From the NCBI RefSeq assembly GCF_014203325.1, contig NZ_JACHIV010000001.1, positions 3,287,501 to 3,351,500 on the forward strand: DNA of 64,000 nucleotides, read 5' to 3'. The position numbers and the translations under genes were made by a program. The stretch's first letter is position 1, and the number at the start of each line of letters is the position of its first letter. Origin of the DNA: Saccharopolyspora gloriosae (GTDB taxonomy: Bacteria; Actinomycetota; Actinomycetes; Mycobacteriales; Pseudonocardiaceae). The notes under the pieces were generated by a model. The model made no database searches. It had not been told where the DNA came from and saw only the letters and a program-made list of their open reading frames with translations. Shown here piece by piece: positions 43,185 to 43,520 of the stretch.

Positions 43185-43520
43185 ATGCGCACCACGGCAC
43201 CGATCGGCGCGAACAGGCCGGTCAGCGGGCCACCCGCCGATCCGTGCGGTCGCCTGGTCCGGTATGATCAACTCGCGAACCGCGAACCGCGAACCGCGAA
43301 CCGCGAACCGCGAACCGCGAACCGCGAACCGCGAACCGCGAACCGCGAACCGCGAACCGCGAACCGCGAACCGCGAACCGCGAACCGCGAACCGCGAACC
43401 GCGAACCGCGAACCGCGAACCGCGAACCGCGAACCGCGAACCGCGAACGGGCCTAGCCGGGGCGGTACCGCTCGGGGCAGCATGGTCCGGTGCACGCTCG
43501 ATCACCGGAAGTCACCATGA
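43185..43520 (+). CDS. small ORF carrying the heptamer repeat array
   Basis: An ORF of 111 residues: MRTTAPIGANRPVSGPPADP..., then about 58 residues translated from the repeat (NREPRTA periods), then a short tail. GGAAGCGGGGA precedes the ATG, and the TGA stop overlaps the ATG of the next gene (ATGA), like a coupled leader. Since 7 is not a multiple of 3, any copy-number change would move the tail into another frame. It could be a real leader or repeat-containing gene, or a fortuitous frame. Confidence 0.35.
   Translation: MRTTAPIGANRPVSGPPADPCGRLVRYDQLANREPRTANREPRTANREPRTANREPRTANREPRTANREPRTANREPRTANREPRTANGPSRGGTARGSMVRCTLDHRKSP
43275..43448. repeat. perfect tandem array of GCGAACC (about 25 copies)
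   Basis: Twenty-four exact 7-bp units from 43275 to 43442, followed by six bases of a 25th (43443-43448). No substitution interrupts it. All six reading frames stay open through it. It lies upstream of the GT-B-like gene. Confidence 0.97.

Follow-up and report, generated by a model that had tools for sequence, protein, structure and literature searches.

A perfect array of 7-bp repeats was found upstream of a gene for a protein with a predicted GT-B fold in the window, the 64,000-nt stretch of Saccharopolyspora gloriosae DNA that was analysed. Judged from sequence comparison, it is quite likely that this array forms the mutable part of a slipped-strand contingency switch of the gene, and that the gene is one of a family so equipped in the Actinomycetes. 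In many actinomycetes, including Streptomyces, such genes are probably turned on and off as repeat units are gained or lost. The original prediction, that the array could phase-vary expression of the GT-B-like gene, was thus supported by arrays at the same site in relatives, by a stop/start layout kept in about half of the loci with an array upstream of the gene, and by the occurrence of intact and broken alleles.

The array and its leader reading frame

At positions 43274-43448 of the forward strand, TRF detected 25.0 copies of a 7-bp unit, with 100% matches and no indels, so that a perfect array with a non-triplet unit, as expected of a slipped-strand contingency locus, was present. The array had originally been read as about 25 uninterrupted GCGAACC units, which agrees with the TRF result apart from the unit being written CGCGAAC. 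It is enclosed by a leader open reading frame (43185-43520, forward strand, 111 aa) that begins with ATG and at 25 copies ends at TGA 43518-43520. Upstream of this ATG lies a purine run (43169-43179, +) that scored as Shine-Dalgarno-like, and the anticipated ORF with a ribosome site around the array was accordingly recovered, as was the overlap of its stop with the start of the next gene, TGA 43518-43520 and ATG 43517 sharing the letters ATGA. Repeats within a leader ORF that has its own upstream start and ribosome site, the arrangement known from the pil1 locus discussed below, were therefore present as far as sequence can tell. A further Shine-Dalgarno-like motif, GGAAG at 43507-43511 (+), may serve the downstream gene.

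Because the unit is 7 bp long, each gain or loss of one unit would move translation into another frame. When the leader was read at copy numbers of 23 to 27, it stopped at TAG 43454 with 23 or 26 copies, at TGA 43525 with 24 or 27 copies and at TGA 43518 with 25 copies. The expected shift of the read-out among three frames was therefore seen, including the ATGA-coupled frame and the stop ending at 43527 (TGA 43525-43527, +, at +8 of the gene start in the +2 frame); the third stop, placed earlier at about 43452, had to be moved to TAG 43454-43456 (+). The latter is located 3' of the array and 63 nt 5' of the gene's ATG. As it occupies the frame of the gene behind the array, no copy number would fuse leader and gene, and a leader-gene fusion protein at the window locus was ruled out. 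On sequence grounds, a change in copy number thus alters the frame of the leader here and that of the leader or the gene in homologues.

In the proposed mechanism, a leader translated from ATG 43185 that terminates at TAG 43454, well 5' of the gene, would leave the gene OFF, and one that terminates at TGA 43518 or TGA 43525, both of which overlap the gene start, would turn it ON through termination-reinitiation coupling. Copy number would change by slippage and the change would be reversible. Translational coupling as the mode of action at this locus is less certain than the frame switch itself.

The window locus is known from one genome of its species, and comparison was made with two close orthologues (80% and 70% identity) in other species of the genus. 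At the position of the window array, TRF found 14.8 copies of the 8-bp unit ACCCGCGA in one of them (100% matches) and 31.8 copies of the 8-bp unit CGCGACTC in the other (97% matches). The surrounding layout was retained: TAG lies 63 nt 5' of the gene start, closing its frame, and stops lie at +1 and +8 of that start in all three loci. In a MAFFT alignment (L021-L023), the leader start and its ribosome-site-like sequence were near-identical in L021 and L022, with both ATG 43185 and the purine run conserved in L022, and L023 likewise has a start there (GTG/ATG) with a Shine-Dalgarno-like sequence. The leader frames were 1 in the window and 0 and 2 in the orthologues; three species thus displayed three states. 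Masking of the start codon by a hairpin was also considered and was rejected, since the z values in L021 and L022 (-1.07 and -2.00) did not prove general (mean z -0.13 over 49 loci, 24 of which lay above 0).

Recurrence of arrays in a gene family of the Actinomycetes

Homologues of the GT-B-fold gene were present in 180 of 297 genomes of the window's taxonomic family (E up to 1e-20) and, with an alignment as the query, in 16 out of 246 genomes sampled across the class (E up to 1e-30), its own genome being counted in both cases. A scan of GTDB genomes with alignment A1 returned at least 548 relatives, the best 80 of which were kept; with the single protein instead of the alignment as query, a scan of genome contigs found no relative. 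Arrays occurred either upstream of the gene (site U) or inside it near residue 130 (site I). The first set of 114 loci comprised 42 with a site-U array, 21 with a site-I array and 51 without an array, and the GTDB set (the best 80 of at least 548, mostly Streptomyces) comprised 64 with a site-U array and 16 without. After removal of 17 GTDB-set loci from genomes already counted, perfect arrays were found in 114 of 177 distinct loci (93 at site U, 21 at site I and none at both), with 63 lacking one; these loci are top-scoring matches rather than a random sample, and 10 had been picked because their matches were split. The array-less homologues imply either that the switch is dispensable or that the array was lost in assembly. 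Among the best 80 of the at least 548 relatives, arrays were seen in Streptomyces, Saccharopolyspora, Amycolatopsis, Nocardiopsis, Micromonospora, Actinoplanes, Actinomadura and others. In a separate class-wide draw, 12 of 29 loci had arrays at these sites, the 29 including two (L260 and L270) that repeat the window's own genome and excluding the window locus itself (L244).

While the position of the arrays was kept, the unit sequences varied between species. Periods were 7 or 8, with 5 in one locus, and a 9-bp array was encountered once, next to a 7-bp one; period 6 was absent from both sites across the 177 loci. The locus with the 5-bp unit, L087 (744-1015, G072), has 54.4 copies of this non-triplet unit at site U. 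Another homologue, L099 (G013), contains two intragenic arrays of 13.7 and 13.6 copies of one 7-bp unit, about 100 nt apart, and its frame is open. In relatives the array may lie within the N-terminal coding region or, as at site I, in the gene near residue 130, where a change by one unit would truncate the protein outright.

Such arrays are otherwise scarce. A 21-mer spanning three units has 22 exact matches in the 6.83-Mb genome, every one of them within the window array, which places the array beyond chance. As a background, 20 stretches of 20 kb (400 kb) from 8 genomes were scanned, at first with a stricter threshold than that used for the homologues (at least 26 bp and 3.4 copies) and then again with the matching one (24 bp, 3 copies, period 4-13). 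At the stricter threshold no perfect array of period 2-13 was present in the 400 kb and a single array of period 14 was found; at the matching threshold there was one array, of 3.4 copies of a 7-bp unit. This sole 7-bp background array, CGCCCGG, lies in the window's own genome (L141 7920-7943; G000:C1, about 5207920), and the background stretch L155 (G340) holds a perfect 14-bp array of 10.5 copies at 11889-12035. Off the two sites, 714,630 bases of homologous loci contained three arrays, one of them the second array of L099. The expectation that perfect variable-number repeats are uncommon in actinomycete chromosomes thus held for the background and failed for this gene family, in which 114 of 177 loci have one.

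At site U, the frame of the gene was closed by a stop between array and start in 47 of 93 loci, here termed STOP-type. In 42 of these 47, one or more of the candidate starts, which average 2.7 per locus, had a stop at exactly +8, compared with an average of about 4 loci for the other same-frame offsets from +2 to +29 and a maximum of 15 at +14, an excess that stems in part from a further start lying 6 nt 5' of the first one. Outside the STOP-type loci the same stop was less frequent, at 7 of the 27 remaining site-U loci that have a start, 1 of the 20 with a site-I array and 15 of the 61 without an array. TGA predominates at this position in the Pseudonocardiaceae and TAG in Streptomyces, and because the two encode different residues when read in the gene's frame, the stop itself rather than an amino acid appears to be kept, suggesting that ribosomes arrive in the +2 frame. 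The +1 stop was distributed differently, with 15 of 47 STOP-type loci, 3 of 27 other site-U loci with a start, 15 of 20 site-I loci and 29 of 61 array-less loci. Stops overlapping the start are therefore common throughout the family and not special to loci with arrays, the latter being distinguished by the +8 position. From sequence, the +8 stops of STOP-type loci are what translational coupling predicts.

The remaining 46 of 93 site-U loci had no stop in the gene's frame after the array, and 19 of the 46 lacked a start between array and gene, so that the array of these loci is probably part of the sequence coding for the N-terminus. One clade has a -10-like TAGGAT (TATGAT in L122) located 7 or 8 nt 5' of an upstream start. 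Nine of its loci were readable, six being in frame (L033, L096, L109, L113, L114 and L132) and three not (L112, a paralogue in the window's own genome, L122 and L127); L115, the upstream part of which is masked, was left out and would be out of frame if read through the mask. As a second ATG adjoins the array in L109, L127 and L132 and would yield the opposite state, the states of these three depend on the start used. Only in the window's clade and one other can the leader start be placed with reasonable confidence.

Natural alleles that differ in copy number were also found. A paralogue shared by two genomes of the window's genus (L028 and L098, from G004 and G005) was 99.57% identical over 2,093 aligned nt, with a single 7-bp gap equal to one unit; the reading frame of L028 runs through the whole gene, and that of L098 meets a stop 87 nt past the array. 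Two Streptomyces anthocyanicus strains (L237 and L238) were 99.95% identical over 2,100 aligned nt, with one mismatch and one 56-nt gap corresponding to eight units (9.6 versus 17.6 copies), and the frame was intact in one and broken in the other. Over 6,981 nt the identity of these strains was 98.4%, gaps counted, and the gene resides on linear plasmids with complete sequences. The open allele is annotated with 589 aa and the frameshifted one only from behind the array; in five annotated plasmid records the switched gene is named only as a hypothetical protein. Across 25 scorable site-I alleles, 16 were open and 9 frameshifted, the latter being over-represented because split matches had been fetched deliberately, and L105 was dropped from this ON/OFF count as its contig ends in the array. 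At site U, genes with 96 to 98% identity had 4.0, 14.0 and 17.0 copies.

The composition of the units was also distinctive. Over 113 loci, T made up 1.6% of the coding strand of the units and 17.4% of that of both flanks. Stops were absent from all frames of the 36 distinct units on both strands, so that only the shortage of T is strand-specific. A self-complementary tetramer, which may favour slippage, was present in 29 of 39 distinct units as against 18.5 from shuffling, the units not being independent of each other.

The putatively switched protein and its convergent neighbour

The putatively switched gene (43517-45178, forward strand) encodes 553 aa, and the structure model (mean pLDDT 92.3) has a GT-B fold over approximately residues 16-382, which backs the earlier description of the protein as GT-B-like and points to a glycosyltransferase- or polymerase-like enzyme. 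Its nearest solved folds, tied at Z of about 20, were capsule polymerases, TagF, UDP-GlcNAc 2-epimerases and TarL, with TagF at 20.7 and UDP-GlcNAc 2-epimerase at 20.2 in a comparison that barely covers residues from about 385 onwards. Like the wall teichoic acid polymerases TagF and TarL and the non-hydrolysing UDP-GlcNAc 2-epimerases, the protein has a GT-B fold (Z of about 17 to 21 over about 305 to 334 residues). Unlike them, however, it has no Pfam match, and identity to them is only about 9 to 17%. No Pfam family was assigned to the window protein at E up to 0.001 or at 0.1, and sequence searches against solved structures gave weak, unconvincing matches only. The Pfam model PF04464 (CDP-glycerol glycerophosphotransferase) was not matched above its cut-off, the window protein having no match and 2 of 28 alignment members having weak ones (best E 0.0034), and membership of a known defence family was rejected, as none of the 28 members had a PADLOC match at E up to 0.1. 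In the model, site I corresponds to the loop between strands 124-126 and 133-135, after a conserved HGxGF motif. Phase variation commonly affects enzymes that act on surface polymers, and the GT-B gene may have such a phase-variable surface-polymer role, with selection favouring variable surface polymers.

Convergent to this gene, family models identified an NB-ARC/TPR (NLR-like) gene at 45186-47306 on the reverse strand. A homologue of it was found downstream on the opposite strand in at least 137 of 177 loci (at least 86 of 93 with a site-U array, at least 7 of 21 with a site-I array and at least 44 of 63 without an array), counts that are minima because the flanks are short, and the two genes thus form a conserved cassette. 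Elsewhere in the window, the reverse-strand frame 15199-16020 contains an in-frame PE dipeptide repeat encoded by a hexamer array (15351-15401), and the C-terminal QAGVVYGDVH of its product resembles the N-terminal QTGAHYGDTY of the NB-ARC protein. The two segments may be akin to the paired motifs of amyloid signalling; when the window was scanned with a simple pattern, only the NB-ARC protein matched.

Alternative explanations and known systems

The array might instead act by its length, as the first transcribed stretch behind a promoter, tuning promoter output or the structure or stability of the mRNA. Two -10-like elements are candidates at the window locus: P1, TACCAT at 43152-43157 (+), which lies 5' of the leader ORF and reads TAACAT and TAGCAT in the two orthologues aligned by MAFFT (L021-L023), and P2, TATGAT at 43263-43268 (+), located 5 nt 5' of the array. 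No consensus promoter accompanies P2, and a sigma-70 consensus scan around the window leader found no promoter. If P2 were the promoter used, the transcript would start at the array and ATG 43185 would be excluded. Within 24 nt 5' of the array, TAnnAT was present in 31 of 38 site-U loci of the first set, compared with 15 of 570 control stretches, and in 7 of 42 loci of the GTDB set (mostly Streptomyces), compared with 7 of 615 controls; a different motif, chosen after inspection of the sequences, was found in 24 of 42 GTDB-set loci and 16 of 615 controls. Several Streptomyces loci (L188, L189, L216, L232 and others) share a recurrent GGTTG ... GATAA-like element directly 5' of the array, which is unlike a standard sigma-70 promoter and is possibly the site of an alternative sigma factor. 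There is also a precedent in hmwA of Haemophilus influenzae, where, in the part of that report available, the 7-bp units are flanked by two promoter regions and transcript declines as units are added (PMC8262952). An action by length would, however, not explain why period 6 is missing, why stops in particular frames stand at the start of the gene or why there are intragenic arrays that break the frame. It is accordingly held to be unlikely as a replacement for the frame switch, although an effect of length may exist in addition to it.

Two further explanations were given much less weight. The diversity and perfection of the units are what recent expansion of a neutral, self-expanding satellite in a tolerant spacer would give, and the self-complementary tetramers in 29 of 39 units and the 63 of 177 loci without an array would also suit an element with no regulatory role. 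Such a satellite, however, would hardly be near-absent from the 400-kb background and occur only three times off-site in 714,630 bases, nor would it be expected to turn up repeatedly, across many genera, at the same two positions of a single gene family, with periods that are not triplets and stops that are conserved, and this explanation is considered highly improbable. Still less probable is an operator array for a regulator such as a SARP-type protein binding heptameric direct repeats. The accessible text on SARP-LAL operators describes heptamer repeats in promoter regions, recurring every 11 bp, or 10 in a secondary operator (PMC5930380), and the NB-ARC/TPR neighbour scores against the AfsR model, though far below the cut-off. 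The spacing does not agree, the period being 7 in the window and 7 or 8 bp in general, the units differ between orthologues, and arrays also occur within coding sequence; an operator of this type was therefore rejected. Frame switching by copy number thus remains the preferred explanation.

Repeat slippage as a source of phase variation is most familiar from pathogens adapted to a host. In classical coding-region contingency loci, such as mod and the lipooligosaccharide genes of Haemophilus and Neisseria, a change in repeat number frameshifts the gene off, and the site-I arrays would turn their gene off in the same manner. The classical units usually measure 1-5 bp and belong to host-adapted bacteria, whereas those described here measure 7 or 8 bp and occur in GC-rich actinomycetes. 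Phase-variable tandem repeats with variation through copy number have reportedly been found in an actinomycete, Mycobacterium tuberculosis (PMC12817950).

Among described mechanisms, the leader-peptide switch of pil1 comes closest, and hmwA is the nearest in unit size. According to the portion of the report available, pil1 and pil3 of Streptococcus gallolyticus undergo leader-peptide phase variation, and pil1 has 5-bp GCAGA units and a transcription terminator that is kept open by the ribosome (PMC3894217). As there, non-triplet repeats are located in a leader ORF with its own ribosome site and their copy number sets where the leader ends. In contrast to what that text describes for pil1, unit length is 7 or 8 bp, except for one locus with 5 bp, and the unit sequence varies between species, the alternative stops overlap the start codon, relatives have an intragenic array, and no T-tailed terminator was found between array and gene in a simple consensus scan of 42950-43700, the Rho-dependent kind being outside its scope. 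What likens the window locus to hmwA is a long stretch of 7-bp units that may here, too, separate promoter from gene; from the available part of its description, the transcript and protein of hmwA fall as copies rise, and a frame logic is not described there (PMC8262952). The titles and abstract openings of open-access PMC literature, a scope in which subscription papers are mostly not included, gave no account of this repeat switch in actinomycetes or Streptomyces, and the accessible part of a survey of frame transitions contained no mention of the window locus (PMC3711429). The present system differs from those known in its unit, in the overlap of stop and start, in the intragenic alternative and in its recurrence over several families of mostly soil actinomycetes.

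A broader reading is put forward only tentatively, namely that the arrays constitute an old, self-renewing device maintained in place, in which T-poor 7- or 8-bp arrays at two alternative sites of the GT-B gene, together with frame-specific stops, gate expression by copy number modulo 3. Together with the NB-ARC/TPR gene this would form a phase-variable surface-polymer and surveillance cassette, plausibly directed against phages, in Streptomyces and its relatives. If the switch itself is true, frame-encoded switching would operate in Streptomyces, Saccharopolyspora and other soil genera, and colonies of antibiotic producers could consist of mixed cell types. The finding would make colony heterogeneity in soil actinomycetes, and possibly their resistance to phages, accessible to direct test, and it draws attention to an uncharacterised two-gene cassette of a GT-B-fold and an NB-ARC/TPR protein.
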